A DNA stretch of 64,000 nucleotides, taken from NCBI GenBank assembly GCA_029262375.1, contig JAJCZM010000049.1, positions 67,992 to 131,991 on the forward strand, given 5' to 3'. Shown here piece by piece: positions 35,294 through 63,998 of the stretch. The DNA is from Deltaproteobacteria bacterium (lineage in GTDB: Bacteria > Desulfobacterota > Binatia > UBA1149 > SPBQ01). Below the pieces are notes generated by a model. The model did not search any database. It was not told the origin of the DNA and saw only the letters and a list, made by a program, of their open reading frames with translations. Positions within the stretch are counted from its first letter, which is position 1, and every line of letters starts with the position of its first letter. The translations under genes and the position numbers were made by a program.

Positions 35294-36883
35294 GTGTTTC
35301 GTTTCCGAGCCGCCAGCCCTGCCGTGTCGCGTACACGGATCGTCATCTTTCTTTGCGCCGTCGCGCTACTGGCAGCAGTAACCACCATCGCCGATCCGGG
35401 CAACGTGCTTGGGCTGCGTAAGATCAGCGACGATCACGGCAGCTTCAACGGCGATCCCGACCCCGGCGACTGGTTCGGATACTCGGTCACATCGATGGGC
35501 GACCTCAACGGCGACGGACGTCCCGACATCGCCGTCGGCGCACCATTTCAAGATGACGGTCCCGGCGACGACAGCGGCGCGGTGTGGATTCTCTTTCTCA
35601 ACGCCGACGGCAAGGTCGGCTCCGAACAGAAAATCAGTTCAGAAGCAGGCGGATTCCAAGGCTTCCTCGACCCCGGCGACGAGTTCGGCGCGTCGGTAGC
35701 GCGCATCGCCGATCTCGACGGCAATGGCGTAGACGATCTAGCAGTCGGCGCACCGGCCGATGACGACGGTGGCGAGAACGCCGGCGCGGTTTGGATCCTA
35801 TTTCTCGACAGCGACGGCACCGTCATCGACGAGGCGAAGATCAGCGATGTCTTCGGCGGCCTCGCGCAGAACCTTATAGCCGGCGATTTCTTCGGTCTTT
35901 CCGTTACTTCACTTGGCGACTTCGATGGGGACGGCACCGATGACCTGGCCGTTGGAGCGCCTCTCGACGACGACGGCGACGGCGTCGACGTCGGCGCGTT
36001 CTACGTTCTATTCCTCAACGACGACGGGACGGTGCGCGACGAGGTGAAAGTCAGCGACTTGGCCGGCAACTTCAAAGGGACTATCAATGAGGGCGATTGG
36101 TTCGGCCACGGGATCACGCTTATCGGTGACCTCGACGCCGACGGAACGATCGATCTCGCCGTCGGCGCACCGCTCGACAACGACGGCGACGACGCCGACT
36201 CCGGCGCCATCTGGATTCTCTTCATGAACCCAGACGGTACCGTGCGCGCGCATCAGAAGATCAGCGACAAAGAAGGCGGCTCGATCGATTTCTTCAATCT
36301 GCGACCTGCCGATCTGTTCGGCTACGATGTCTCGGCACCGGGCGACCTCAACGGGGACGGCATTCCGGACGTCGTCGTCGGCACGCCGCTCGACGACGAC
36401 GGCAGCGGCGCAGACCTGGGTGCGCTGCGATTCCTGTTTCTCAATACCGACGGCACCGTCAAAGGTGCCACGAAGATCAGCAGAACCACGGGCGGCATCA
36501 ATCCGGATATTATCGCGGGCGATGCGTTCGGGAGTTCGGTCGCGATGATTGGCGACCTCGACGGCGACGGATTCAACGACGTTGTCGCGGGCGCACCGCG
36601 CGACAACGACGGCGGCGGCGTAGACAGCGGCGCGGTCTGGGTTCTGTTCCTCGAGGGTTTCAACGAGAGCTGCGGCGATGCGACCGAGGACTCGACCATC
36701 ACCGTGACCGACGCCTTGGTCGCGCTCAATGCGTCGGTCGCCTTGACCGAGTGCGCACTGTGCCTGTGCGATGTGGACGATAGCGGTGTGGTCACGGCGA
36801 GCGACGCACTCATCCTGCTCAGTATCTCAGTCGGCTTGCCGTTCGATCTCGCATGCCCCCTCTGTGAGCCACAGCAACCGTAA
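35294..36883 (+). CDS. FG-GAP repeat (integrin-alpha-like) secreted protein with TASDAL dockerin-like tail
   Basis: Repeats of GDWFGYSVTSMGDLNGDGRPDIAVGAP; tail CDVDDSGVVTASDALILLSISVGL. Confidence 0.85.
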   Translation: MFRFRAASPAVSRTRIVIFLCAVALLAAVTTIADPGNVLGLRKISDDHGSFNGDPDPGDWFGYSVTSMGDLNGDGRPDIAVGAPFQDDGPGDDSGAVWILFLNADGKVGSEQKISSEAGGFQGFLDPGDEFGASVARIADLDGNGVDDLAVGAPADDDGGENAGAVWILFLDSDGTVIDEAKISDVFGGLAQNLIAGDFFGLSVTSLGDFDGDGTDDLAVGAPLDDDGDGVDVGAFYVLFLNDDGTVRDEVKVSDLAGNFKGTINEGDWFGHGITLIGDLDADGTIDLAVGAPLDNDGDDADSGAIWILFMNPDGTVRAHQKISDKEGGSIDFFNLRPADLFGYDVSAPGDLNGDGIPDVVVGTPLDDDGSGADLGALRFLFLNTDGTVKGATKISRTTGGINPDIIAGDAFGSSVAMIGDLDGDGFNDVVAGAPRDNDGGGVDSGAVWVLFLEGFNESCGDATEDSTITVTDALVALNASVALTECALCLCDVDDSGVVTASDALILLSISVGLPFDLACPLCEPQQP

Positions 36884-40790: not shown

Positions 40791-42020
40791 GTGCAGACCA
40801 TGATTTCGTGTGATGAACGGTTCGCACTACCCGGCGGTGCGACGGCAATCGTGGCGGCACTCCTCGTGGTGCTGCCGGCCGCGATGTCGGGGTGCGACAA
40901 GGATAAGGAATCGGTCGAGAACGACCCGAATCGGCGCAATGGAGCGCCCGTCTATCGGCTTCAGTTGCAATCGCCCGTCTACACGATCGACAAGATTTAC
41001 AAGTCGATGCAGGGTCCGTCCGACATAGAGCGCATGCGGCTCGGCGGCGACTCGGAGGTCGAAGAGCTGGTATGGATGACCGGCTATCGCGCCGAGGTCA
41101 CGGACGCATCGGGCAACGAGCCGCGCTCTGCGGAATTCATGTGTCACAGCGCGATGGATACCCGCGACGACGTGTACCGGGCGAAATTCCCAACGGCGAT
41201 GCGTCTGCGCGGCAACCGACTATTCAGCGTGGATCAAGGAACGCTGGAGAACGTACTGCCGAGCGGCTTCGGCGTGCCACTGATGTCGTCGAGCGACCTT
41301 CTGGTCGCCACGCAAGTACTGAACCACAACGTCGAAGCGGACCCGTTCGAGGTTAGACAACGCGTCACCGTGGAATTCGTGCGCGATGTAGACCTGGCCA
41401 CTCCGCTCAAACCACTGATTCAGCACGGCATCTACGGTCTTGCACTGGTGGACGGTCCGGACGGATACATGGGTGTCGCGCCCGGTAGTGCCGACGAAAA
41501 ACGTCACGGCCCGGGATGTTCGATCGCCGAAGACGTCGGGCACCCCGGCGGTTTGGTTCTCGATAAACACGGTCGACGCTTCTCATCGTTCTGGGTCGTT
41601 CCCCCCGGGCGCCATACGTACCACACGCGCGTGACCGACCACCTGGGTCTTCCGTACGACACCACCGTGCACTACGCGGCGGCACATCTGCATCCGTTCG
41701 CGACGTCGCTCGAGTTGTACGACATCACATCGTCTCGATCGGTGATCAAGCTGACTGCGACCGCAAGCGCCAACGGCACCGGTCTGGCCGAGGTGGAAAG
41801 TTACTCGAGTGCCGACGGGGCTGCGTTGTACGCGGGGCACGAGTACGACCTCATCGCCGAGTACGACAACACGTCACGCGTGGCGCAGGACGCAATGGCA
41901 ACGATGCTTCTGTACGTACTCGTTCGCGACTTAGAGTTCAGCAAGCCTGACGGCGACCCGGCGAAGGAATCGATCTGGGAACAGGTCGACGCGGGGCCGT
42001 TGGCTCAGAAGTTGAACTGA
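40791..42020 (+). CDS. Lipoprotein of unknown function, possible copper type II monooxygenase-like domain
   Basis: VVLPAAMSGCDKDKE lipobox; HTYHTRVTDHLGLPYDTTVHYAAAHLHPFATSLELYD. Confidence 0.7.
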   Translation: MQTMISCDERFALPGGATAIVAALLVVLPAAMSGCDKDKESVENDPNRRNGAPVYRLQLQSPVYTIDKIYKSMQGPSDIERMRLGGDSEVEELVWMTGYRAEVTDASGNEPRSAEFMCHSAMDTRDDVYRAKFPTAMRLRGNRLFSVDQGTLENVLPSGFGVPLMSSSDLLVATQVLNHNVEADPFEVRQRVTVEFVRDVDLATPLKPLIQHGIYGLALVDGPDGYMGVAPGSADEKRHGPGCSIAEDVGHPGGLVLDKHGRRFSSFWVVPPGRHTYHTRVTDHLGLPYDTTVHYAAAHLHPFATSLELYDITSSRSVIKLTATASANGTGLAEVESYSSADGAALYAGHEYDLIAEYDNTSRVAQDAMATMLLYVLVRDLEFSKPDGDPAKESIWEQVDAGPLAQKLN

Positions 42021-42541
42021 GAAGCGACGCGACTCGAGAGCGCGGTGAGTCTCGGCTGCGTAAGGAGATGCGTGAGAAAGTGACCGCCGAGCAAGACAAT
42101 GCGCACAGTGATCATGCTGGTGGCGAAGGCCTCACAGGCCATGCGAAGACTCTCGAGCGATTGCACGCTGGCGAAGTCGGCATCTTCCACAACGACGACC
42201 AACGAGACGCCGCGTGTTCTGGCATCGGCCATCTCTGAGAAGAGCGCTTCTACCTGCTGCTTCCCGCCGACAGCGCTGCGCGTCGGCAAGCTGCCCGCCA
42301 TCAATTCGGCCATGACGTCGATGCGGCCGAGCCGGCCACTGAACGCGATCACGCGCACGCCCGACGCGCGATCGATTGCCGCATCGAGGGTTTGTCGGAT
42401 CGCGTACTGATCGTCACCGACGAGCACCGCGTGCCCCTCGCCGGAATCTAGGTATCGCGTGATCTTCGCCTCGATGTCGCGCGGAGTGTATCGCGAGCGA
42501 ACCGACCGCGATCCTTTGGACTGTCTAATCGTCGAAGCCAT
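42005..42541 (-). CDS. ExeA-like AAA domain protein with degenerate nucleotide-binding motifs
   Basis: C-terminal TVRIVLLGGHFLTHLLTQPRLTALSSRVASQFNF resembles ExeA/AAA_22 'QIVLVGQPEL...LRQRI..RYHL'; Walker A position reads VGDDQYAIRQTL; start from internal Met. Confidence 0.6.
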   Translation of the reverse strand: MASTIRQSKGSRSVRSRYTPRDIEAKITRYLDSGEGHAVLVGDDQYAIRQTLDAAIDRASGVRVIAFSGRLGRIDVMAELMAGSLPTRSAVGGKQQVEALFSEMADARTRGVSLVVVVEDADFASVQSLESLRMACEAFATSMITVRIVLLGGHFLTHLLTQPRLTALSSRVASQFNF

Positions 42542-42623
42542 TGCGTAACCGTCTTGACCCGCGACAATTTCCCGCAAGCCCGAAGCAGCGACAATCGTTC
42601 GAGCACTCAGACTGTGCGTAACT

Positions 42624-42650
42624 CCTCGACCTGCCCGACCTGCCCGACTC
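42624..42650. repeat. 9-bp tandem repeat (x3)
   Basis: CCTCGACCT GCCCGACCT GCCCGACTC just downstream of the TPR-B stop. Confidence 0.6.
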
Positions 42651-42653
42651 GCC

Positions 42654-44948
42654 TTACTTCGGATTCGACAGGCCGGCGAGCAGGTGCGACACGACGCCGT
42701 CGCGCGCGAACACGCGCGAGTGTTGAGCAATGTCGCGCCAGACGCGCAGTTGCGCCGTGCCGAGCGCACGAAATCGCCCGTTCACATCACGGAACGTGTA
42801 GATGGAAGATGCACGATTTCCGCCCAGCATATCGAGGCAAGCAACCAAGACCGTCCGACGATCTGCGCTGCCTAGCGAACCGCGCAATTCGACGTCGGCG
42901 CGACGGCGCCCCTCCCACAATAAAACCGGCAGCGTACGCTCGATTGCGTCAAAGGCCGACAGTCCGCCGCGCTCGTCGCCGCCGTCGAGTTCGGCCAGAC
43001 CGCGCACTACCCACGCACCCATCCGCGCCGGATTCTCGCGCGTGGCGTGCTCGAGATCCGTGAGCGCGAGATCGAGTTCGCCGCGGCGCCAATGCAGCTC
43101 GCCGCGATAGGCGTACGTCGCTTCCTCTGGAAGGTATGTGTATTCGGTCTTGCCGTTTCCCCACACGGCCAGCGCTTCGTCGTAGTCCCCTTGCAACATT
43201 CTCGCGGCACCGCCGCCGACGTAGCCCCAGCGCGTCTTCGTCTTGTCCCAAATCTCGTCGAAACCGGCCTGCGCTTTCGCGTAGTCGCCCATCCACAGAT
43301 GGATCTCCGCGGCGTACGTGCGCGCGAACGGCGAGAACTCATCTTGCGCGGCAAGAGCCGCAAGGTCGGCTAGTACGTCGGCAACCGAACGATGCAGGAT
43401 GCGCGCTTGCGCGTTGACGGCCTGCGACCGCGGCGCTTCGAGATCGTAGAGTGGATCCAATCGGTCGTCGACGACGCGCGTGGGCTGACGCGAGCGGTTT
43501 CCCGCGAACCCGCTCATCGTACGGTCAACCAATTCCGACAGACGACGGTCGTCGTCCACGATCGGCCGGACGGCGTCGCGTCCGTGCATCTGGACGAGGA
43601 GCGAAAGATGACTCGGCGACTTCGACCAAGGCTCTTCGTTATCGTCGGCACGGTAGACGAGGTCGGCCTGCTTACGCTGCAACTGCCAAACCGGATGATC
43701 CGCAAAGCGACCGCCGGGCTTGAGATCGTCGAACATGCCTTCGGTATCGCCCGCGTCTCGACGCGCGACCGCACGCCAGAGCAACGCCTCGCTGTTCTTC
43801 GGCTCGGCTTCGATGACGCGATCGAGGTCTTCGAGAGCGCCTTCGATCTGCCCGATCAGCGTTCGCGCCGCGCCGCGCGCGCGAATCGCGCGCAGATCGC
43901 CGGGTCGTTTGGCAAGTACCAGCTCACAAAGCGGCAGGCTGGCCTCGGCATTCCCCTTGTACAGCTCCAACTCGGCCAAGCGCAGGCTCAGATCGAGCGG
44001 GCCGCCGCGGTCGTGAATCGCGCGCGCACGTTGCAGAGCGCCATCGGGATCCCCGGCGCCGAAAACCGACTCCACCGCGTGCGTCAGATCTTCGCCGTTC
44101 GGTTCGGCGGCGAGCACCGCCGTACAGGCGTCTCGCGCGATGTCGGGTCGGCGTGCCAGCGCGGCCAGGCGTCCTACCTCGCGCCAATCCGCCGCAGCCC
44201 CTGTTCGCAAGGCGACGAGGTGACGTAGCTCCAGCGCCGCATCGAGCGCCTCGACGACCGTAAGCATGCGTGTGAGCGCGCGCTGCTGTTCAAGGCCCAG
44301 CGGCGCATCGGCCAGCGCGAGAACCCGCGGGCGAACATCGACAGCCAACCCGCAAAAGCCATCGAGCACCGCCGCGCACGCAGCGTAACTCGCGGCGCAG
44401 CATGCGACGGACGCAGAATCGCAGCCGGACTGACCGGCAAGTGCGTGATCGTAGGCGTCGATGGCACCGCCGATATCGCCGACATCCAACCGTAGTACCG
44501 CCGCAGCGGCGGCACCCGCCGGTGACCACTCGACGAGAGTACGAGCCGCCTCGGCGAGAATCTCAGCGTCGGGTTGCTCGGGCGCAAACGCTGGTTGTTC
44601 TAGCAGCGTAAGCGCCGAGTCGAGTTGCGTCGCTTGTAACCCCAGTGCGCCTTCGGCGGCTCGCCGGCGCCATGCGACGAGGTCGACGGCGAGCTGCGCG
44701 TACGCCCGCACGCGCGGATCGATACGATCTCGCACCGCCAAAAGCAGAGCGCGCTCCGTCTTACCGATGGTGCTCGGGCGCACGACTTTCGGCGAAACAG
44801 ACGCATCGGCACCAACACGAATTTCGATTGTCGGACCGGCGCCGCGGTCGAAGAACAGGCACAACGCGTCGTCGACTGCAGACAGCCGAGAGGGCCGTAA
44901 CCCCTTCGGCCAATCGCCGAACCAATCCGGTAGTGGCAGCGCGATCAT
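42654..44948 (-). CDS. TPR-repeat protein B
   Basis: Multiple TPR-like helices; paralogous to 44945..47188; ATGA overlap with it at 44945-44948. Confidence 0.8.
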   Translation of the reverse strand: MIALPLPDWFGDWPKGLRPSRLSAVDDALCLFFDRGAGPTIEIRVGADASVSPKVVRPSTIGKTERALLLAVRDRIDPRVRAYAQLAVDLVAWRRRAAEGALGLQATQLDSALTLLEQPAFAPEQPDAEILAEAARTLVEWSPAGAAAAAVLRLDVGDIGGAIDAYDHALAGQSGCDSASVACCAASYAACAAVLDGFCGLAVDVRPRVLALADAPLGLEQQRALTRMLTVVEALDAALELRHLVALRTGAAADWREVGRLAALARRPDIARDACTAVLAAEPNGEDLTHAVESVFGAGDPDGALQRARAIHDRGGPLDLSLRLAELELYKGNAEASLPLCELVLAKRPGDLRAIRARGAARTLIGQIEGALEDLDRVIEAEPKNSEALLWRAVARRDAGDTEGMFDDLKPGGRFADHPVWQLQRKQADLVYRADDNEEPWSKSPSHLSLLVQMHGRDAVRPIVDDDRRLSELVDRTMSGFAGNRSRQPTRVVDDRLDPLYDLEAPRSQAVNAQARILHRSVADVLADLAALAAQDEFSPFARTYAAEIHLWMGDYAKAQAGFDEIWDKTKTRWGYVGGGAARMLQGDYDEALAVWGNGKTEYTYLPEEATYAYRGELHWRRGELDLALTDLEHATRENPARMGAWVVRGLAELDGGDERGGLSAFDAIERTLPVLLWEGRRRADVELRGSLGSADRRTVLVACLDMLGGNRASSIYTFRDVNGRFRALGTAQLRVWRDIAQHSRVFARDGVVSHLLAGLSNPK

Positions 44949-47188
44949 GGCGTGAGTCGATTGACGATCTCGCGCTCGACAAGCGGTACACGGTTGGCCG
45001 CTTGGCGCCGCCAGGATTCCACGTCTTCGACGATCCGGAAGCGATCGTCTGCGTCGAAGTACGTGATCGTGTGTGAGGATCTGTTCCCGCGCATCAACCG
45101 GAGGCCCTCTTCGAGAACCGCTGACATTTCTTCCTCGGGCGACGGCCACGTGTGGCCGAGCGCGCGAGAGATGTCCCAGAATAGACGCGGGTGCTTCTCT
45201 ACCAACGAACGGTAGCTGAGCAATGCATCGTCGCGGCGACCAAGCGCAATGTGGCAGAGCGCCGCACTCATGCGGGCGGCGACGCGGCCGGGCTTTGCCG
45301 ACAGTGCCACTTCGAACTCGCGCAGTGACTGTTCGTGCTCACCTCGCAGGCGGTGCAGCTCACCGAGATAGACATGCGTCGTCGCACCCGGGACCGGCTC
45401 GAACACGTACGCAAGCCTTTTGAATTCGTCGAGCGCTGCATCGAAATCGCCACGATGGACGTGCACTGCCGCACGACCTACGAATCCCCAGCGCGCTTGC
45501 TTGGCCTTGTCGTTGCCGAAAAAGCACTTCTCGGCCTCGTCGAACTGTCCGAGCCACAGGCGAAGTTCGCCCCAATAGCACCACGGATGCGGCGACTCAG
45601 GAAACTGCTCGTTGAGAGCCTTGAAGCCGGCATGCACGTTCTCGATCGGCTGCGTTCGGATCGTCTTGAGGAGTTCGGCAGATAGATCCCGACTCACGAG
45701 ATCGGCGTCCTGCGGAGCCGGAAGCATCATTTGGAGATCAGCAGGACGGTCGGATTTCCCCGCCGGAATCCGCGTGAGCGCTTCTTTGCGATTGCCTTTG
45801 AGCGAGGCCAGCATCGCATCGACCTCGGCAAGGCCGGGGTTCGCGATCGTCGTACCGTCGGCCTCGGCCTCGTTGCGCAGGATCGCCACGACGTTCGGAT
45901 AGATATCTCGATCCACGAGCGCCGTTAGCAGCGTGTGCAGCGGCGTCTGTGCGCGAGCACGCGCATAGTTGAGGTAGTGGGTCGCCGTCTCCATGTCGCC
46001 TTTGCGCATGTATAGCTCAGCCATCCACGCCATCGTCTCGGGATCGTCGAGGGCTTCGATCCCCTTGAAGATCGTCAGTGCTTCTTCGTTCTCACCGTCG
46101 AGCACACAGCGCGCGCCCTCGGCTCGCAAAACGCCGATGGCCTCCGGCTGGAGCTCACGCGCTTTCGCGATCCAGCCGCGCGCGTCATCGGTACGCCCGC
46201 ACCACAAGGCGATCTCGGCCAGCGTAAGAAGCACTTCGAAGTGCGGCGGATCTTTAGCCGCGCGTTTCTCGAGAATCTCAGCGCCCTCGGCGAATGCGCC
46301 GTAGCGCAGCAGATCGCGCACCACGCGGATCATCAGGTGATCGTCGTTCGGCTGCGCGGCGCTGGCCCAACGCAGGCATCGCACGGCGAGTTCGCTTCCG
46401 TTGAGCTCATGCGCCAGTTCCGCCATCGGAACGTAATAGTGCGCGCGCTCAGAAAGCTTCGTGTACACGAGCCCCAACCGCAGACGTTCAAACGCCGCCT
46501 CGGTGAACCGTAGTTCCTTCAGTGCAAGCCCGCAGAAGGCGTTCAGCCCTCCCCACGACGCGTTGCCCTCCGGCGACGAGGCGGCGCATTCCTGCAGTCG
46601 GTCGATGTCGCCCGAGCAGGCGTAGACGACCGGCGCCAACCACGCAGGCAGATTGGCAACGTCGGTGTCGGCGTGCGCGAGGACTTCGTCCCACGCCCCC
46701 CCGATCAAGCGTAGGTACAACCGGATTCCGAGCGCGTCGTCGCCCTCGCCGACATCGATGACGGGCATGGATCCCGCTCGATATTCTTCCGCGCTACGTA
46801 GCTGCCGGATCAGGTCGAACGCCTGCGCCAGATCGAGATCGTCGCGGCTCGGCTTGTAGCTGCTCGGCGCAGAGTCGCCGCCGACGATCTGCTGCACCCA
46901 GAGCATGCGTTGATGGAACGCCTGCATGTCGCTACGTGCCTCGGCCAGAGCCGATGCGTCGAGCGACAACGATTCGTTACCGTGACTCGTGACCAAGCGC
47001 GCGGCAACCGGGTCGGCCGCGGTGTCCACTTCGTAGACGCGTTGCTCGCCGCGCGCTGTCGCAATCCATAGACGCAGCGTCTCGGGATCGGCGTGCGCTT
47101 CCAACCACTTCGCATCTAGGGCGCCGAACAGGCGAAGCCATGCCGGCCGCGCCTGCACGAGGATGAACTGTGCTCTTCGTGGACTCAC
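44945..47188 (-). CDS. TPR-repeat protein A
   Basis: 747 aa, TPR-like repeats; 9-bp gap to upstream PhyH gene. Confidence 0.85.
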   Translation of the reverse strand: MSPRRAQFILVQARPAWLRLFGALDAKWLEAHADPETLRLWIATARGEQRVYEVDTAADPVAARLVTSHGNESLSLDASALAEARSDMQAFHQRMLWVQQIVGGDSAPSSYKPSRDDLDLAQAFDLIRQLRSAEEYRAGSMPVIDVGEGDDALGIRLYLRLIGGAWDEVLAHADTDVANLPAWLAPVVYACSGDIDRLQECAASSPEGNASWGGLNAFCGLALKELRFTEAAFERLRLGLVYTKLSERAHYYVPMAELAHELNGSELAVRCLRWASAAQPNDDHLMIRVVRDLLRYGAFAEGAEILEKRAAKDPPHFEVLLTLAEIALWCGRTDDARGWIAKARELQPEAIGVLRAEGARCVLDGENEEALTIFKGIEALDDPETMAWMAELYMRKGDMETATHYLNYARARAQTPLHTLLTALVDRDIYPNVVAILRNEAEADGTTIANPGLAEVDAMLASLKGNRKEALTRIPAGKSDRPADLQMMLPAPQDADLVSRDLSAELLKTIRTQPIENVHAGFKALNEQFPESPHPWCYWGELRLWLGQFDEAEKCFFGNDKAKQARWGFVGRAAVHVHRGDFDAALDEFKRLAYVFEPVPGATTHVYLGELHRLRGEHEQSLREFEVALSAKPGRVAARMSAALCHIALGRRDDALLSYRSLVEKHPRLFWDISRALGHTWPSPEEEMSAVLEEGLRLMRGNRSSHTITYFDADDRFRIVEDVESWRRQAANRVPLVEREIVNRLTP

Positions 47189-47197
47189 CGTTCGGGT

Positions 47198-49003
47198 TCA
47201 GAGCCGGGCCAAGATCGTGCCGCTGGCCGTTCTCTCCTCGAATACTCTACAGACGTCGGCAGTCACGCCGCCGACGGCGTGATCGCGCAAGACGTTGGAA
47301 TAGGCCAGCTGTGTGGCAATGCGGTCGCCCATCAGGTGTTTGAGGCGCGCGTCCAGGTAGTCGGTCCATACCGGCGACAATGCAATCGGCTGCGTCGCGC
47401 CGTCCAATTGGGCGGCGATGTCAGCGACGTTTTCTTCACCAGGCTGTGGGAATGCCACATCGAGAACACTGCCGCCTTGGTAGGCCTCTCGAGCGACACA
47501 ACCTATCTTGGGTTGATCGCCCTGGAACTCCAGATCCGCATACTCTGGAATGCCGGCCAACGGCGTCCCGCCGAGGTCGGCGACATAGTACAGGGTGTTG
47601 GGCGACCACGCGTCGGCAAACGCCCAACCTTGCTCCGTCGTCACGCGCACCAACAAATGGTCGCCACGGCCGGTAGCGGGGTCGATCGTGTTGAAGATCT
47701 CCACCTGCTCGAACATCTGCGAGAGAAGCAGCGCGAGCGTATAGTTCTGCCCCTCGCAATTGACGAAACCGCGAAACAGTCGCGACCAGTTCGTTTGCGG
47801 AAAATCGGCTTCGCCGACCTGCTCGGCCAAATGCGCGTGGGACGCAAGCTGATTGACCAGCACTTCCCCCACGATCGAGATGCATCTTCGCAATCGCGAA
47901 ACGTCGTCCGCGAGCCTCTCTGCGATTTGGTCCGCGAGTCGCGAGACCCACGACATCGACAGCGCGACGTCCAGATCGAGTACTCGCGCACGCACGGTCG
48001 CATCGACCCGCTCGTTCCATTGCTCACGTTTCGGTAAGAAGTAGTCCGGGTGATTCGCCAACAGGACACGCGCGCACTCGGCGAAACTGCGACGACGCGA
48101 GCGAATCATCGCTTCGGGATTGACCAACCTCGAGATCACCGCGGTTTCCACCGGCGACGGCGACGGATTGTCGGGGCGATAGTCGAGCGGATCGGCCGTT
48201 CGTATCATCGGATTCTCTAGATAGCGCACGCGGTAGCTATAGTTGGAGTGCGGTGCGTGTAGCGAGAACCCGTGCGTAATCAGCACGTCGCCCGCCTTAC
48301 CGGTGAACTCCGCGATGTCGCTACACTGTCGCGCAATCGACTTGCCCCACTCGTCGCCTCGACTATCGATCCCTTGTTCGGTTTCTTCGAGTTGTCCGAC
48401 GATGTGGGTCAACGACTGGCCGGTATAGAGAGTGCCGGCGCCTCCGGATTCGACATCGGTCCATAGGATGAGAAGCGCGAGCGCATCGCGACGATTCTCG
48501 AATGTCATGTACTGACCGGGCTCGTCGATGTGCCACTGCTGCGAGCCGGCGTAGACGGTATCCACCTCTAACGGCGGACAGGGAGGCGGCCGGAAGTCAC
48601 CGTTGAGTATCCACTGCTCACCCATCGTACGGCGCGAGATGTTTTCGGGATCACCGACCAAGCTCACGATCGCCCCCCAGAGCTTCGGTGAGAACTCTTC
48701 GATGTCGAACGAACGACCGGTGTCGATGTACACGCGTGCAATCGACCAGGTCTCGGGTTCGCGCAGATCGAGCTCTCCTACATCAGCCCGATGCTGTGCA
48801 TCTACATCACGATACGAAGGCGGCGGATCTTTCTCGATCGTAGTCTGACGCACCAGCTGCTTGGCTAGCTCGGGCGAAAAGCAGTCGCGCACAATCAGAT
48901 ACCCGTTCTCGATGAACTCGCGCTTGCGCTCCTCGGACAGGGCGAAGGACGATTCGGACGAGAGCGACGCGTCGATGCTAGGAATGGTCGGATGGGCAGC
49001 CAC
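47198..49003 (-). CDS. PhyH-type dioxygenase with C-terminal transglutaminase-like domain
   Basis: GTG start; FIENGYLIVRDCFSPELAKQLV, WHIDEPGQYMTF (HxD), HGFSLHAPHSNYSYRVRYL; C-terminal NCEGQNYTLALLLSQMF ... GDHLLVRV ... AFADAWSP. Confidence 0.75.
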   Translation of the reverse strand: MAAHPTIPSIDASLSSESSFALSEERKREFIENGYLIVRDCFSPELAKQLVRQTTIEKDPPPSYRDVDAQHRADVGELDLREPETWSIARVYIDTGRSFDIEEFSPKLWGAIVSLVGDPENISRRTMGEQWILNGDFRPPPCPPLEVDTVYAGSQQWHIDEPGQYMTFENRRDALALLILWTDVESGGAGTLYTGQSLTHIVGQLEETEQGIDSRGDEWGKSIARQCSDIAEFTGKAGDVLITHGFSLHAPHSNYSYRVRYLENPMIRTADPLDYRPDNPSPSPVETAVISRLVNPEAMIRSRRRSFAECARVLLANHPDYFLPKREQWNERVDATVRARVLDLDVALSMSWVSRLADQIAERLADDVSRLRRCISIVGEVLVNQLASHAHLAEQVGEADFPQTNWSRLFRGFVNCEGQNYTLALLLSQMFEQVEIFNTIDPATGRGDHLLVRVTTEQGWAFADAWSPNTLYYVADLGGTPLAGIPEYADLEFQGDQPKIGCVAREAYQGGSVLDVAFPQPGEENVADIAAQLDGATQPIALSPVWTDYLDARLKHLMGDRIATQLAYSNVLRDHAVGGVTADVCRVFEERTASGTILARL

Positions 49004-49101
49004 GGAAACGATACCGAGCCCCGAGCTTACAGCGATGTGCGTGACCAGGCCATACGCCGGCCCATGACCCCCTCGCTAGAGGCACGTTTGGGTGTATCTG
49101 C

Positions 49102-51543
49102 TTGCCTCACAGAGACCCCGGTGAGCACAATGTCGGGGTGGGCGCGCCCGTACTCCTCATTCAGCCGCCGTTGTCGCTCAGCAGGGACTTCATCGACTAC
49201 CCGTATCACTGCGATCTCGGGGTGGTTCAAGCCGCTTCGGTGCTTCGCGAAGCCGCGATCGAAGCGGTCGTGGTCGATAGTTTCGCGCTGCCGACATCGA
49301 GCCTGACGCCGATACCGGGTGGCGATCGCGTTCTCATGGGCGCCCCCATCGGCGATACCCTCAAGCACGCCCAGACGCGACGGCTGGCCGGACGAACCCC
49401 CTCGGCGATCGTCGTTTCCTTTACACCGTTCCACCGCCCCCCCGCTCGCGACACCGTTCTCGGCGAATTCCTCGAAGCGCTACGTGCTCGATACGAGCAG
49501 GTGCCGGTGATTCTGGCAGACCTGTATCAAAGCGGTCAGCACTACGTCGAAGCCAACGGTGCCGACATCCTGGCTTCGTACCCCGAGGCCGATATCTTCC
49601 TGAAATACGAGGCCGAGGCGGCGCTGCCGCGGCTCATCGAACGCTTGGCGGGCAAACGCCCCGAGCGAGCCGAAACGGTCCTCGGCGACGAACCGCCGGA
49701 TCTCGACGCGCTGCCGCTGCCGGCCTGGGATTTGGTTGATCTCGACAAGCGCGATCAGTTTCTCGACCGCGTCATCCAGAATCTAGGGCGCGGTCCGTGG
49801 GCCTTCCCGGCCGACGGGCGCACGTTGCCGATGCTCACCAGTCGTGGCTGTCCTTTCCGCTGCGCGCATTGCTCGAGCAACCCAGGGCGCGAGAGCCTGG
49901 AGGCTCCGAAAACGCAGCGTCGCTACAGCGCAGAATATTTGGACCGCCACATCGCCGAGCTCACCGACACGCATGGCGCGACGCGCATCAATTTTCTCGA
50001 CGAGATGGTCAACGTCACGCGCGGTCATCTAGACGGAGTTCTCAGCGCCGTCGTGCGCCACGATCTCAAGCTCGACTTCCCCAACGGCATGCGTGCCGAC
50101 TATCTGGAACAGCAACACATCGATGCCATGGCCGGACGGGTCAACACGCTGTCGGTATCGGCTGAGAGCGGCGTTCAGAACGTGGTCGACGACATCGTCG
50201 GTAAGCAACTGGAACTCAGCTCGATCGAGAACGCGGCTTCGATGGCATCGAAGGCCGGCATCTCGACCTTGGTGCACTTCATCATCGGCAATCCCGGTGA
50301 AACGAAGCGCGACATCAACGGCACACTCGAGTTCGCCCTGCGCCTGCACGACGAGCACGGCGTCTGGCCGAGCATCCAGTACGCGACACCGCTCCCGGGC
50401 ACGGAACTGGCCGCACGCGTCGAGGCCGCCGGGCAAACGCCCGATGTCGACGACTACGGCCCGCTCTTCCAACAGGTACCGGTTACTTCCGGCACGGATT
50501 TCACACCGCAAGATCTGAGTTGGTTCAAGTGGACGTTCGACCAGCGACTGCAGGCCGGACAGCAGCCGCGCAAGATCATCATGAACGTGACGTATGCCTG
50601 CAATAACCGCTGCACGTTCTGCGCAGTCGGGACTCGTACGCAGCTGCACGGTTCGCTGGAACGACAGAAAGAGATCATCGACCACTTCTACGAGCAGGGC
50701 GTGCGTTTGTGCGATTTCGACGGCGGCGAGCCGACGCTTTACCCCGACCTGGTTCCGCTGGTGCAATACACCGCGTCACTCGGCTACGAGGCGATCAACG
50801 TCACGACCAACGGCCGCATGTGCGTCTACGACAAGTACGCGCAGGAACTCACGAACTCGGGCGCCACCAGCCTTCTCTTTTCGGTTCACGGCTCCGACGA
50901 CCGCATGCACGGCGTGAACGTGGGAGTGCGAGAAGCATTCGAGCAGACGATGGACGGCATCAAGAACTGCGTGCGGTTCGCGCCCGACACCCTCGAGCTC
51001 GGCATGAACATCACCATCACGAAGTCGAACTTTCGGCACTTGGAAGAGTGCGTGCAGTTGGCTTGGGATCTGGGACTGCGTTGGTTCAACATCCAGTTCC
51101 TCACACCGTTCGGCCGCGCGACCGACTCTGTCAATCCCGACACGGCCGAAGCGGCGGCGATTGCAGTCAAAGTGATCGATCGCTGGGAAGATCGGATGAA
51201 GTTCCAGGTCATCAACCTGCCGTTCTGCTTCATGCCGGGCAAAGAACGCTACCTGATGGGCGATCTGATGAAACTCGAACGACACATGATCTTCGTCAAC
51301 AACGAAGACGTGAACCTATTCGAGTATCTGAAGGAACAACGCGTCTACAAAGAAGTCTGCCAAGGCTGCGCTCACAAGATCTTCTGCGGCGGCTTCTACG
51401 AACTCGACGATGTCCCCGAACCGCCCTGGGTGTTCGAACCTGCCGAGGTCTATGCGCCGGTCGATCTGGACCGCCTAGCGGCCAAGGGTGCGAAAGAAAC
51501 GGCACCCGACAGGCGGCAGAAAGCCGCTATGGGACAGCGGTAA
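49102..51543 (+). CDS. Tandem radical SAM protein (B12-binding-like N-terminus, two radical SAM domains, Cys-rich C-terminus)
   Basis: SRGCPFRCAHCSS and TYACNNRCTFCAV (two CX3CX2C motifs); FDGGEPTLYPDL; C-terminal CQGCAHKIFCGGFYELD; TTG start or downstream alternative. Confidence 0.88.
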   Translation: MPHRDPGEHNVGVGAPVLLIQPPLSLSRDFIDYPYHCDLGVVQAASVLREAAIEAVVVDSFALPTSSLTPIPGGDRVLMGAPIGDTLKHAQTRRLAGRTPSAIVVSFTPFHRPPARDTVLGEFLEALRARYEQVPVILADLYQSGQHYVEANGADILASYPEADIFLKYEAEAALPRLIERLAGKRPERAETVLGDEPPDLDALPLPAWDLVDLDKRDQFLDRVIQNLGRGPWAFPADGRTLPMLTSRGCPFRCAHCSSNPGRESLEAPKTQRRYSAEYLDRHIAELTDTHGATRINFLDEMVNVTRGHLDGVLSAVVRHDLKLDFPNGMRADYLEQQHIDAMAGRVNTLSVSAESGVQNVVDDIVGKQLELSSIENAASMASKAGISTLVHFIIGNPGETKRDINGTLEFALRLHDEHGVWPSIQYATPLPGTELAARVEAAGQTPDVDDYGPLFQQVPVTSGTDFTPQDLSWFKWTFDQRLQAGQQPRKIIMNVTYACNNRCTFCAVGTRTQLHGSLERQKEIIDHFYEQGVRLCDFDGGEPTLYPDLVPLVQYTASLGYEAINVTTNGRMCVYDKYAQELTNSGATSLLFSVHGSDDRMHGVNVGVREAFEQTMDGIKNCVRFAPDTLELGMNITITKSNFRHLEECVQLAWDLGLRWFNIQFLTPFGRATDSVNPDTAEAAAIAVKVIDRWEDRMKFQVINLPFCFMPGKERYLMGDLMKLERHMIFVNNEDVNLFEYLKEQRVYKEVCQGCAHKIFCGGFYELDDVPEPPWVFEPAEVYAPVDLDRLAAKGAKETAPDRRQKAAMGQR

Positions 51544-52423
51544 GCTCCGCGTCGCCCCAACGCTCGAGGTAGTCGTCGCGAAGCCCCGGGCACTCGTCGA
51601 ACCACTTACAGCCCTCACAACGATCCGTTTTCGTCTGGCCGGAAAGCCGCGAACTGCTCAGCTGAAACACCGCATCGGGCGTGACGACATGCACGTCCTC
51701 TTGGAATCCGGGGTGATAGACGTGGTCTTCGTAGCCGGGGATGAAGCAACGCGGAACGTGCAGCGACAGCATCTCGAGGTCGTGCTCGCGCGCATAATCC
51801 ATACAGCGCGTCATAGAGCCCACCATCTCGGTGATCTTCGGTAGGCTCTCCAGATTGGGCTTGTTCTGATCGGTCAGTGAGACCAGCCAAAGCGTGAACG
51901 ACGTCACCCCGCGGCCGTGCAGGTCCTTTACGCCGTCGAGCAATCCTTCGTGCGTGGCCCGCATGACGATCATGTCGGCGGTCGGACGCGTACCCGCAGC
52001 CACCAGGTTGGTGATGCCTTCGAGCATGAGTTCGTGGGATTCGTCCCCGCCCTGCGTGATCGCCGAATACGGTGCGCTGTCGGATCCGGTGTGCCCGTGT
52101 ACCGAGACGTGAAACCGCGTCGCACCGGCATCGAGCATGCGATCGAGGTAATCGCGGTCGGAAAACATGAGACCGTTCGACTGGACCTTGATGTCGTCAA
52201 AGCCACGGCCGCTCGCGAAACGAACGAGGGGGATCAGTTCTCGACGAATCGTCGGCTCACCGCCCGTGATGGAAAGACTGCGCACCCCCCGACGCGCCGC
52301 CTCCTCGATGTGCCCGGCGACCTCTTTCGCGTCGAGGCCGCGGCGTCGCATTTCGTCGGTGATCGTGCAGTAGGTGCACTTCAGATTGCAGTCGTAGTCG
52401 ATGACGACGTCGAGAAGCGCCAT
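51527..52423 (-). CDS. Radical SAM protein with C-terminal Cys motif
   Basis: DYDCNLKCTYCTI, SITGGEPTIRREL; C-terminal CEGCKWFDECPGLRDDYLERWGDAE. Confidence 0.9.
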   Translation of the reverse strand: MALLDVVIDYDCNLKCTYCTITDEMRRRGLDAKEVAGHIEEAARRGVRSLSITGGEPTIRRELIPLVRFASGRGFDDIKVQSNGLMFSDRDYLDRMLDAGATRFHVSVHGHTGSDSAPYSAITQGGDESHELMLEGITNLVAAGTRPTADMIVMRATHEGLLDGVKDLHGRGVTSFTLWLVSLTDQNKPNLESLPKITEMVGSMTRCMDYAREHDLEMLSLHVPRCFIPGYEDHVYHPGFQEDVHVVTPDAVFQLSSSRLSGQTKTDRCEGCKWFDECPGLRDDYLERWGDAELTAVP

Positions 52424-52442
52424 TTTGTCCGCCCTTCCGGGT

Positions 52443-52466
52443 CCGCAGTCCCCTGCCGGGGTGCGG
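52443..52466. other. Strong stem-loop in divergent intergenic region between radical SAM genes
   Basis: CCGCA-gt-CCCC-tgcc-GGGG-TGCGG. Confidence 0.55.
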
Positions 52467-52593
52467 GTCCAAGACGAGCCACCTTGCGCTACCGGTGCTC
52501 CTTTGTCTACCATGCCTCTAAGGCGGGGGTCGCCGAGAGGCCCCTCCTAATCGCCCGTAGGCCCACCCGATCTACGGCGCAGCAGGCAACATC

Positions 52594-54285
52594 GTGGCAA
52601 CCGGCATCGAGACCATCATCACTGAGCAGGACCGTCGCGAGGCGGCCATCGTCTCGACCTCGCAGGCCGGCCACAAGTTCGAGATTCAGCTGGGGCACCT
52701 CTGCAACAACCGCTGCGTGTTCTGTTCGAGCGGTCAACTCACAGCGATGAAGATCGCCAAGGCGATTCCGCTCGAGCCCATCGTCGCTGCGATCGAAGAG
52801 GCACGCGCTAACGGCGCGACACATCTCACATTCCTCGGCGGCGAGCCGACGATTCACAAACGCTTTCTAGAGGCGCTCGAACGAACCGTAGAACTGGGTT
52901 TCGAGCACATCGTCATTTTCACCAACGGTGTCATGTTCCCCCACCCCGGCTTCATCGAGTCGGTGTGCGCGCTCGGCAACTTCGAATGGCGTATCTCGAT
53001 TCAGGGCGCCACCGACGAAGCCCACGTGGCGGCAACCGGTCGTGCAGACGCCTTCCAGCGGATCATCCACGGGCTGGGAGAATTGCAGAAACGTAACCAG
53101 CTCGTCACGACGAACATGTGTGTCAACGAGCGCAGCTATCGCTCGCTGCCGGCCTACCCTGAGCTACTCGAACACTACGGCGTCAAGCAACTACACGTCG
53201 ACATCGTGCGACCGGCGAGCACGGGCGAACGCGACGAAGCCTACCTTCGCGACATCATGCCCCGTTACTCGGACATGGCTCCCTACTACGCCGACATGCT
53301 CAAAGGCTTCGATGAGTGGGATCCCGACTTCGACGTGAACGTCGGCAACATGCCGTACTGCATCTTGCCCGCATGGGGCCACCGCGTGCACCACGGCGGC
53401 GAGGAAACGGTGACCAAGTCTTCCGACGGTGAAGGCCTCGAAGACGCGATGAACAAGTACGAGTGGCATTCGAGCCTGCGCACGCACCTACCGGGGTGTA
53501 GCGACTGCGCGTTTCGCTCGCGATGCACCGGTATCTTCTCGGAGTACCTCGAAATGTACGGTGGCGACGAATTCCAACCGGTATCGCGCGAGGACCTCAG
53601 GCGCATCGACCCCGAGCGACGCAACTTCGTCTTGCAGGCCGAGCCCGATCTCGCTTCGCTACGCGCGGCGCTCGCTGCGGGAGAAGTCCCGGCTCCGTGG
53701 CAGTTCCGCAACGAGAACAGCGAAGACCGGCGCCGCGCCGTCGAACTACTCTTCACCGCCGACAAGGCGACGCTCACGGTTACGTTCCTACCGCCGGGGC
53801 AAGCCGACGCGGCGATTGCACGAACCGAGGCCTACGATCTCGCAGCCACGGCTGGGGTAAAGGCAAAGGCCGCCGACATCGAGACGCTTCTGGGCTGGAT
53901 CGCCGAGCGACTGTCCGAATCCTCAAACGCGATCACTCTGAGCGAGACCGCGGCAGAAGAGACCATGTGCGACGCCCTGCTCGAGCGAGGCCGAAAGCGC
54001 GTCGTAGGGATCTCTCGCAAACTGCTACGCGGACTCAACATTCCGGGCTGGCGTGTCGCGTCACTCGACTGGACGGACGCGAATACCGGGCGGCTTCGTA
54101 CAGCCGGGCCCAGCGGCAAACACATCGATCTCGTGTTTGCGCTCGGAACACAAGACGGCCGCTCGCAGGTTGATCTCGATTTCCAGCCGTCCGACGACAC
54201 GGACGAGCACAGCGCGAAAGCGGTAATCGACTGCTTCGTCACACTGATCGGCGGCGGCGAGCCTCCGGCCGCACCTCAGCAATAA
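52594..54285 (+). CDS. Radical SAM protein with C-terminal Cys motif and ~200-aa extension
   Basis: LGHLCNNRCVFCSS, FLGGEPTIHKRF; CSDCAFRSRCTGIFSEYLEMYGGDEF; unassigned C-terminal extension. Confidence 0.9.
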   Translation: MATGIETIITEQDRREAAIVSTSQAGHKFEIQLGHLCNNRCVFCSSGQLTAMKIAKAIPLEPIVAAIEEARANGATHLTFLGGEPTIHKRFLEALERTVELGFEHIVIFTNGVMFPHPGFIESVCALGNFEWRISIQGATDEAHVAATGRADAFQRIIHGLGELQKRNQLVTTNMCVNERSYRSLPAYPELLEHYGVKQLHVDIVRPASTGERDEAYLRDIMPRYSDMAPYYADMLKGFDEWDPDFDVNVGNMPYCILPAWGHRVHHGGEETVTKSSDGEGLEDAMNKYEWHSSLRTHLPGCSDCAFRSRCTGIFSEYLEMYGGDEFQPVSREDLRRIDPERRNFVLQAEPDLASLRAALAAGEVPAPWQFRNENSEDRRRAVELLFTADKATLTVTFLPPGQADAAIARTEAYDLAATAGVKAKAADIETLLGWIAERLSESSNAITLSETAAEETMCDALLERGRKRVVGISRKLLRGLNIPGWRVASLDWTDANTGRLRTAGPSGKHIDLVFALGTQDGRSQVDLDFQPSDDTDEHSAKAVIDCFVTLIGGGEPPAAPQQ

Positions 54286-54364: not shown

Positions 54365-56110
54365 TCAGGCGTCGCAGGGCGGACAATTGAGCGTCACGTC
54401 GAGGCCAACGGCCGCCGACAAGACCAGCAACGCGTCGGAAGCAGTCACCGAGCCTTCACCCGTGACATCACAAATGCACGGGGCGCACACCTGCAATCCA
54501 ACCGCCGCATTGAGGATCAGCAACGCGTCGCTCGCGGTGATGATCTCGGCACGCAGCGGCGACCCTGCGCCGGCATCCACTACCGGATCACCGCAGGTCT
54601 GGCCGCCGCCCGACGGCATCGTCGTCGAAGTCGTGCTCGTCGTGGTGGTCGACATCGTAGTAGTAGTCGTCGTGCTGGTGGTTGTGGATGTCGTCGCAGC
54701 CGCGCCACGACTGTACATACGCGCGACCGCCGCCGGTTCTACCGGCGAGCGACGCGACCACACCAGCACGAAATTCCCCTGTGGATCGGCGGCGACGTCG
54801 GTGCGAAAGGCCCCCTCTGACAGGTCATTCTGCGGCGTGAACACCGGGCCGTCATCCGTGCCGTTGGCCTCGAAACAGGCGGCACTGACACCTTCCATAT
54901 AGGTGCCGTAGTAATCGTACGTGGACCAGGCGACAACGAAGCGCCCCGCGTTATCGATCGCGATACCGGGCTCCATCTGTCGCGCTGTAAACCCCTCATG
55001 CACCTGGATCTCGTTGGTAATCGGCGTACCTGTTGCGGTAAAAGATCGCGCAAAGATACGAGACTGTTCGGCACTCTCGGAAACCTGATCCTGCCACGCG
55101 ATGGCGAATGTGCCGGCGTCGTTTCGATCAACGGCGGGCGAGATCTGATAATCCGCCGTCGTCTGGTTCACCACGAACTCGGTTCCGAGCGGCGCACCGG
55201 TGGACGAGAAGAGTCGCGCACTTATGCCGCCACGTGATCCGTCGAGCCCGGCTGTGTAGTCGCCACTGGCCCACACGACGACGAAGTTCGAATCGCCGTC
55301 GAGCGCCACCACCGGGGTGCGCTGATCTTCGGTCGTGAAATTCTCGACCATGAATTCATCGCCGATCGGCGTCGCATTCGCAGTGAAGCGTCGCGCCGCG
55401 ATACCGGAGTAAGGAGCCTGCCCCTGCGCGCTAGACTGCCATACGACCACGAAGCTGCCATCGGCCGCGAGGTCGATGTCCGGATCATCCTGCGCCGCGT
55501 CGGTGTAGGTGGGAACGACGAAATCGACGCCTTGTGGAACGCCCGCGGCATCGACCACTCGGCCGAAGACGCTGAGAAAAGTTCCGTCTCGGAAACTGTT
55601 GTCTGCCCACACGACGATGAAGCTGCCGCTGTCTGCGATCTCAACCGCCGGAGAGCGCTGGATGCCGGTCCCGTACGAGTTCACTACGAACTCCGCGCCG
55701 AGTGCCGTGCCGTTGGCAGCGTAGCGTCGCGCAACGATGTCGTAGCCGCTATTGCCGCCGAAGTTTTTCGCCCACACGACGACGAAACTTCCATCGCCGG
55801 CTCGCGCGACAGAGCGGCCGGGAGAAATCTGGTTCGCGCTTCCAGTCGTGCTGACTTCGAACTCGTCGCCGACGGGCGTACCACCGGCGAGCACTGCTGT
55901 CGGTGAGACGAGGATCAGATAGGCTGCCATCACAACCGGCGCTGCCATCATGGCCGCCGCTACCAGCGACCCGCGTAACCGAAAACAATTCACGACGATA
56001 CCTCCAGCCGGGAATCCCGCCACCAGATCAACACCATCGCACGGCCTCAGTCCAACCTGCCGTGCCATGGCTTGTTCCGCGGCCGCTGGAATCATATTCT
56101 CTGCCGGCAT
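54365..56110 (-). CDS. Secreted repeat protein with Thr-rich linker and TASDAL dockerin-like tail
   Basis: GSFVVVWADNSF/GDGSFVVVWAKNF repeats; ATTSTTTSTTTTTTMSTTTTSTTSTTMP; EIITASDALLILNAAVGL...GSVTASDALLVLSAAVGL; true start may be further downstream. Confidence 0.82.
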   Translation of the reverse strand: MPAENMIPAAAEQAMARQVGLRPCDGVDLVAGFPAGGIVVNCFRLRGSLVAAAMMAAPVVMAAYLILVSPTAVLAGGTPVGDEFEVSTTGSANQISPGRSVARAGDGSFVVVWAKNFGGNSGYDIVARRYAANGTALGAEFVVNSYGTGIQRSPAVEIADSGSFIVVWADNSFRDGTFLSVFGRVVDAAGVPQGVDFVVPTYTDAAQDDPDIDLAADGSFVVVWQSSAQGQAPYSGIAARRFTANATPIGDEFMVENFTTEDQRTPVVALDGDSNFVVVWASGDYTAGLDGSRGGISARLFSSTGAPLGTEFVVNQTTADYQISPAVDRNDAGTFAIAWQDQVSESAEQSRIFARSFTATGTPITNEIQVHEGFTARQMEPGIAIDNAGRFVVAWSTYDYYGTYMEGVSAACFEANGTDDGPVFTPQNDLSEGAFRTDVAADPQGNFVLVWSRRSPVEPAAVARMYSRGAAATTSTTTSTTTTTTMSTTTTSTTSTTMPSGGGQTCGDPVVDAGAGSPLRAEIITASDALLILNAAVGLQVCAPCICDVTGEGSVTASDALLVLSAAVGLDVTLNCPPCDA

Positions 56111-63833: not shown

Positions 63834-63998
63834 CTATTGTTCCTCTCTCACCGACGGTGCAGACAGTGGACTTCCGTGCAGTGCGCGAACCAGCTTGCTG
63901 ATTCGTGACACCAATTCGTCGAAGACGACTGCATAGCCGTCCACCTCTTCGGTGCTCTCTGCTTCTACGTCGGTGGGATTCTTCGTATCCCATTCCAA
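63834..63998 (-). CDS. Partial CDS (C-terminus) running off the window edge
   Basis: My translation of the reverse strand: LEWDTKNPTDVEAESTEEVDGYAVVFDELVSRISKLVRALHGSPLSAPSVREEQ*, stop directly adjacent to the pstS ATG. Confidence 0.5.
   Translation of the reverse strand: MEWDTKNPTDVEAESTEEVDGYAVVFDELVSRISKLVRALHGSPLSAPSVREEQ

Follow-up and report, generated by a model that had tools for sequence, protein, structure and literature searches.

Three radical SAM genes beside a PhyH-TPR operon in a Binatia genome: a predicted displaced arm of an expanded HxsA4-type Hxs system

The stretch analysed here (the window: 64,000 nucleotides of contig JAJCZM010000049.1, designated C49, from a Deltaproteobacteria bacterium of the class Binatia, ending at C49:131,991) carries seven genes that encode three radical SAM (S-adenosylmethionine) proteins, named TAND, R328 and R563, a PhyH-like oxygenase, two tetratricopeptide repeat (TPR) proteins and a small ExeA-like protein (Table 1). 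All seven open reading frames (ORFs) reported by a first-pass annotation of the sequence are present, and the operon details it described were reproduced: the PhyH and TPR-A genes are separated by 9 bp, TPR-A and TPR-B share an ATGA overlap, and PhyH and TAND are divergent across a gap estimated at about 100 bp and measured at 98 bp. The two radical SAM genes said to follow TAND both exist, but R328 lies on the minus strand, convergent with TAND and overlapping it by 17 bp.

Table 1 Coordinates of the features discussed. Positions without a prefix are those of the window; L numbers denote stretches of this and other genomes.
Feature	Location	Strand	Basis or remark
ExeA/AAA-like small protein	42005..42577 (start uncertain; ORF open to 42769)	-	AAA_22, TIGR03015 sub-threshold
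TPR-B	42654..44948	-	Pfam TPR families; TPR-A paralogue, two GNR motifs
TPR-A, 747 aa, GNRSS family	44945..47188	-	Pfam TPRs, family profile and alignment
PhyH-like Fe(II)/2-oxoglutarate oxygenase, 601 aa	47198..49003	-	Pfam PhyH, HxD...H...R
TAND, tandem radical SAM, 813 aa (start may be 49138)	49102..51543	+	Pfam Radical_SAM, two domains
R328, radical SAM, 328 aa (or 298 aa from ATG 52423)	51527..52513	-	Pfam
R563, radical SAM/SPASM, ~230 aa C-terminal extension	52594..54285	+	Pfam
Secreted repeat protein	54365-56110	-	Thr/Ser linker
PhoU-like protein	L001:826-2157, reaching window 63834-63998	-	
His/Asp/Gly-rich protein	L043:2995-3537	-	
His/Asp/Gly-rich protein	L057:6405-6851	-	
His/Asp/Gly-rich protein	L077:12540-12965	+	
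His/Asp/Gly-rich protein	L081:7927-8382	+	
His/Asp/Gly-rich protein	L155:8067-8690	+	
~730-aa Hxs fusion protein	L062:12168-14363	-	
~730-aa Hxs fusion protein	L063:3587-5770	+	
~730-aa Hxs fusion protein	L079:7384-9576	+	
Asp_Arg_Hydrox-radical SAM fusion (G336)	L059:10368-12770	-	PF05118
Solitary TPR-GNRSS protein	L166:8735-10636		

Domains were called with Pfam and NCBIfam profiles at their own cut-offs. Peptides are common substrates of radical SAM/SPASM proteins; the three found here, predicted as such in the first-pass annotation, match Radical_SAM clearly (TAND 8.7e-33 over two domains, R328 9.7e-22, R563 9.1e-20) and keep intact every CxxxCxxC motif and SPASM-like C-terminal cysteine, including CPFRCAHC, CNNRCTFC and the SPASM-like C-terminal Cys of TAND. 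The genome as a whole has 37 Radical_SAM matches, strongly clustered. The two TPR proteins are paralogues, as proposed (26-27% identity). The ExeA-like protein scores below threshold (AAA_22 20.5 bits, cut-off 27; TIGR03015 19 bits, cut-off 324.5) and has no GK[ST] in its Walker-A region (GDDQYAIRQ), so that the earlier description as a pseudo-ATPase appears reasonable. The oxygenase had been described as PhyH/transglutaminase-like. The first half of that description is supported by the profile (PF05721: 22.3 bits for the whole protein, 24.1 for the N-terminal half, cut-off 22) and by the retained putative active-site residues (W-H158-I-D160, forming HxD, and the distal H and R); the second is not, the C-terminal half matching no Pfam family even at E<=10 and showing only a C/H/D spacing by eye. 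The whole PhyH protein found no match when used as query in the phylum (297 genomes) or in GTDB contigs, a sequence search of solved structures with the PhyH and ExeA-like proteins gave a marginal SyrB2 match (E 0.57) and otherwise noise, and the single-sequence AlphaFold model of the PhyH protein was discarded (predicted local distance difference test, pLDDT, 33).

The rest of the His-Xaa-Ser (Hxs) system of this genome begins ~12 kb downstream of the seven genes, outside the window, in the stretch L001 (C49:131,000-150,999). It includes five further Radical_SAM genes (C49:135.5-147.7 kb): HxsB (TIGR03978, 508 bits, cut-off 370) and four radical SAMs resembling HxsC/HxsC4, of which one carries a methyltransferase at its C terminus. 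The same stretch encodes HxsD_rel (50.6 bits, cut-off 41), HxsD slightly under threshold (48 bits, cut-off 50; the proteins of the genomes G315 and G328 reach 53.8 and 52.7), an aKG-HExxH peptide beta-hydroxylase (TIGR04267, 94 bits, cut-off 40) and an HxsA4 precursor (NF038313, 91 bits, cut-off 55) of ~95 aa, which ends in 14 HGS repeats followed by W and is encoded beside a Tat-signal protein. The absence of a visible precursor gene noted earlier is correct for the window, where no HGS-type or low-complexity precursor ORF was found, but not for the contig, the HxsA4 gene lying ~17 kb beyond the seven genes. HxsC4 is the best NCBIfam model, far under its cut-off, for the second domain of TAND, for R563 and for three other radical SAMs of this system.

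The comparison across the class covered 143 genomes. HxsB, HxsA4 and R563 are present or over cut-off in 12 genomes each and TAND in 11, and all four occur together in the same 11 genomes. TAND was found in none of the 143 outside the HxsB/HxsA4 genomes (Fisher's exact p ~1e-15, shared ancestry ignored). The Hxs/TAND genomes fall into five families, and the named matches are metagenome-assembled genomes (MAGs) labelled Deltaproteobacteria or unclassified bacteria. TAND orthologues are 37-40% identical over their full length in 10 other genomes, R563 orthologues ~60% identical in 11, and R328 orthologues 40-45% identical (paralogues 22-26%), directly adjoining TAND in nine genomes. Five genomes (G309, G336, G328, G372, G315) share the order rSAM-rSAM-rSAM-TAND-R328-HxsD-HxsD_rel-HxsB-HExxH (radical SAMs, rSAM, of ~600, ~630 and 345 aa; TAND ~770 aa; R328 ~315 aa; the HxsD_rel of G372 was missed by the simple gene caller used), with the ~630- and 345-aa radical SAMs similar to this genome's L1_601 and L1_389. 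The part of the block from TAND to HExxH is also present in G381, making six genomes with TAND running into Hxs genes; in G349, G329 and G355 TAND and R328 stay paired beside the three radical SAMs, and the G304 contig stops within TAND. HxsB-HExxH is directly followed in G315 by R563, an r341-type radical SAM and another tandem radical SAM, and an HxsA4 gene lies ~8 kb from the R563 orthologue in G336. Because the order TAND-R328-HxsD-HxsB is conserved elsewhere, the radical SAM genes of the window are read as Hxs genes split from the main block; gene position is a stronger argument for this membership than the co-occurrence statistics.

The three radical SAM genes are probably accessory maturases of an expanded HxsA4-type Hxs RiPP-like (ribosomally synthesised and post-translationally modified peptide) system, here split ~12 kb apart. 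On the reading of the first-pass annotation, the genes would form an undescribed natural-product pathway of their own, with no relation to Hxs; in favour of this, none of the seven genes reaches any curated NCBIfam radical SAM family cut-off, but a strict co-occurrence with HxsB/HxsD/HxsA4, and a place in the same operons, in ten other genomes make it very improbable. The combination, described as unrecognised, is indeed no standard characterised pathway, but its radical SAMs are assignable to the nameable Hxs/HxsA4 system. The more general proposal of a modification locus stands, with functional-looking radical SAMs and parts co-conserved in independent genomes.

A profile built from the C-terminal 190 aa of the TPR proteins (TPR-GNRSS) detected the family in 7 genomes of the class, 7/7 of them also with HxsB, TAND and R563 (p ~4e-9 for the link with Hxs, not phylogeny-corrected). 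Each protein carries, in a full-length alignment, two GN(R/H)(S/T) motifs, one in the middle and one C-terminal, each followed by a hairpin-like stretch; no stretch of the 8-member alignment is conserved enough for a genome-wide scan. A radical SAM gene lies within ~10 kb of TPR-GNRSS in 6/7 genomes (stronger members). These neighbours include tandem radical SAMs in G329 and G381 (65% identical to each other, with an orthologue on contig C16 of this genome), r341-type radical SAMs in G329 and G309, and R563 itself in G309. The ~730-aa protein beside TPR-GNRSS in G381 joins HxsD_rel, HxsD, a radical SAM and a 2Fe-2S ferredoxin. Fusions of ~730 aa that combine HxsD_rel-like, Tat-partner-like, HxsD-like, radical SAM and 2Fe-2S ferredoxin parts were seen at three loci (Table 1). 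2-Oxoglutarate (2OG) oxygenases also accompany the TPR gene: in this genome and in G349 a PhyH protein, in G315 two Cupin_8 proteins (with two more PhyH proteins ~12 kb away), and in G336 an Asp_Arg_Hydrox domain (Asp/Asn beta-hydroxylase) fused to a radical SAM adjoining TPR-GNRSS. A tandem radical SAM, PhyH and TPR side by side, the trio on which the neighbourhood check of the first-pass annotation was based, occurs class-wide in this genome alone, and G349 is the one other genome with all parts, on separate contigs; the conserved units are instead two overlapping modules, TAND-R328-Hxs, and TPR with a 2OG oxygenase or radical SAM. The AlphaFold model of the C-terminal half of TPR-A (8 sequences, mean pLDDT 80, predicted TM-score, pTM, 0.77) is a TPR superhelix with a beta-hairpin end after GNRSS. 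Foldseek returned generic TPR superhelices only, such as the peptide-binding OGT, Pex5 and MamA, and the model would fit a substrate-holding role. A genome-wide TPR-GNRSS scan gave 6 loci, five from class genomes and one solitary, the latter in a Deltaproteobacteria-labelled MAG (SAT32), beside a uvrA-like gene and without a radical SAM within 10 kb.

The HxsA4 precursors share the consensus leader LPxLRKxPLDFLSxxEARQA...ALRxEPNSEKMLLAQHMSHAS, followed by 14-23 HGS repeats and a final W; the leader has diverged in the copies of this genome, which keep ILLAQHxSHGS and W. Two further HxsA4 genes lie on contig C18 (L041, G000:C18:118000-137999), each with a paralogue of the Tat protein and a very large secreted protein as neighbours, and no Radical_SAM match was found anywhere on that contig. 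Tandem units of HxsA4, Tat-partner fragments and near-identical large secreted proteins were seen in G336 (L148, L149, L150; G336:C3:533000-599900), one HxsA4 gene being apparently frame-damaged; they look like a recent duplication of the substrate side.

Several observations weigh against placing the whole locus in the Hxs system. TAND, R328, R563 and the other HxsC-like proteins miss the HxsC and HxsC4 cut-offs (best HxsC score, TIGR03977, 100 vs 267.9 bits; HxsC4, NF038332, 59-116 vs 500 bits) and are relatives, not members. The two Hxs pieces are parted by about ten unrelated-looking genes (a secreted repeat protein, sulfatase-like, GDSL-like and phosphate-transport genes, phoU, and an LLM-type oxidoreductase). 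TPR-GNRSS genes without a nearby radical SAM occur at L166, L044 and L058, and most TPR loci are physically outside the Hxs island. Small His/Asp/Gly-rich proteins with the conserved helical segments DEKR-IDTIV-LVAERV or LQLEMSQ adjoin r341 (L043, L057, L077) or R563 (L081), and another of the R563-linked type lies on the Hxs contig L155; these may be a second substrate class or metal-binding proteins. The radical SAM arm might then act on such proteins and merely travel with Hxs genes in a large island. We consider this unlikely, since the proteins were found neither in the window nor in L001 or L002 (a second radical SAM cluster, on C16), and the orthologues of TAND and R328 share their blocks with HxsD-HxsB rather than with these proteins. 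A somewhat stronger contender, still less credible than the Hxs assignment, treats the PhyH-TPR-TPR-ExeA operon as a separate unit, serving for instance protein hydroxylation or small-molecule chemistry, which is divergent by chance from an Hxs radical SAM. The operon occurs in this exact form in this genome only, some TPR-GNRSS genes stand alone, PhyH proteins are a common and generic type of oxygenase and the TPR model resembles general peptide-binding superhelices, but the one other PhyH match in the class (E<=1e-6; G349) adjoins a TPR-GNRSS gene, TPR loci repeatedly stand with 2OG oxygenases and HxsC4-like radical SAMs, including the HxsD-fusion radical SAM, and none of the seven TPR genomes found in the class lacks Hxs.

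The Hxs assignment was computed from gene content, co-occurrence, co-localisation, fusions and intact catalytic motifs; from these we infer the substrate, step order, HxsD-type peptide binding, oxygenase tailoring, TPR scaffolding and export. HxsA4 peptides (leader end ...ILLAQHxS, ~14-23 HGS, W) would be held via HxsD/HxsD_rel while HxsB and the HxsC4-like radical SAMs (TAND, R328, R563 and the four in L001) would modify the repeat in successive radical reactions. The aKG-HExxH hydroxylase and, here, PhyH would add oxygen-dependent tailoring, the two TPR-GNRSS proteins may serve as peptide-holding scaffolds for the PhyH/radical SAM step, and the product would be exported or displayed with the Tat-signal partner encoded beside HxsA4. 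A more ambitious version, in which about eight radical SAM proteins (nine domains), TPR-GNRSS scaffolds and 2OG oxygenases act on one (HGS)n peptide to give a hitherto undescribed kind of His-Ser polymer that is exported and is densely cross-linked or redox/metal-active, is speculative, and we rate it as rather unlikely.

Other features were recorded around these genes. The secreted repeat protein immediately downstream of R563 ends in a dockerin-like pair, 'TASDALLxLxAAVGL', and a similar tail occurs at window 35294-36883. The PhoU-like protein spanning the end of the window has a C-terminal low-molecular-weight phosphatase/ArsC-like half. The cluster L002 (G000:C16:108000-127000) contains two B12-type radical SAMs, a 959-aa radical SAM, a 2OG-FeII_Oxy_3 oxygenase and the orthologue of the tandem radical SAM that adjoins TPR genes in other genomes.

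The Hxs system was reportedly defined by Haft and Basu in 2011, by bioinformatics only, as HxsA, HxsB, HxsC and HxsD (TIGR03979, TIGR03978, TIGR03977, TIGR03976), and to our knowledge it has been named yet chemically blank since then. Full-text searching of the literature turned up no biochemical work on HxsB or HxsC, which PMC9062424 mentions only as a sequence cluster. The system described here shares with it the His-Xaa-Ser-repeat precursor, an HxsB over cut-off, an adjoining candidate HxsD and HxsC-like radical SAMs, and with the HxsA4/HxsC4 variant (NF038313, NF038332) a precursor over the HxsA4 cut-off. It differs in having seven or more radical SAMs instead of two, and in the addition of HxsD_rel, the aKG-HExxH hydroxylase, the Tat partner, PhyH and the TPR proteins. 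Enzymes of the aKG-HExxH type hydroxylate RiPP precursors, and PflC/PosC, which share the TIGR04267 domain found in the Hxs islands, act on Gln-rich precursors (PMC12636437), whereas the enzyme here sits in an HGS-repeat system known from genes alone. OGT, Pex5 and MamA (PDB) have the superhelix in common with TPR-A, but TPR-A and TPR-B each carry two GN(R/H)(S/T) motifs, the last forming the C-terminal hairpin, and correspond to no known sequence family.

The locus is, judging from its sequence, probably a displaced arm of an expanded HxsA4-type Hxs system of a chemically uncharacterised kind. New here are the expanded operon, the families TAND, R328, R563 and TPR-GNRSS, the HxsD-radical SAM-ferredoxin fusion and the link to 2OG oxygenases; at least seven undescribed radical SAM, oxygenase and TPR families are tied to the Hxs system. 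With the conserved operon order, the precursor consensus …LLAQHMSHAS(HGS)nW and fusions showing which parts act together, the modification of the His-Xaa-Ser repeat becomes a directly testable question. A precursor encoded tens of kilobases from its enzymes means that much of a peptide-maturation system is easily overlooked.

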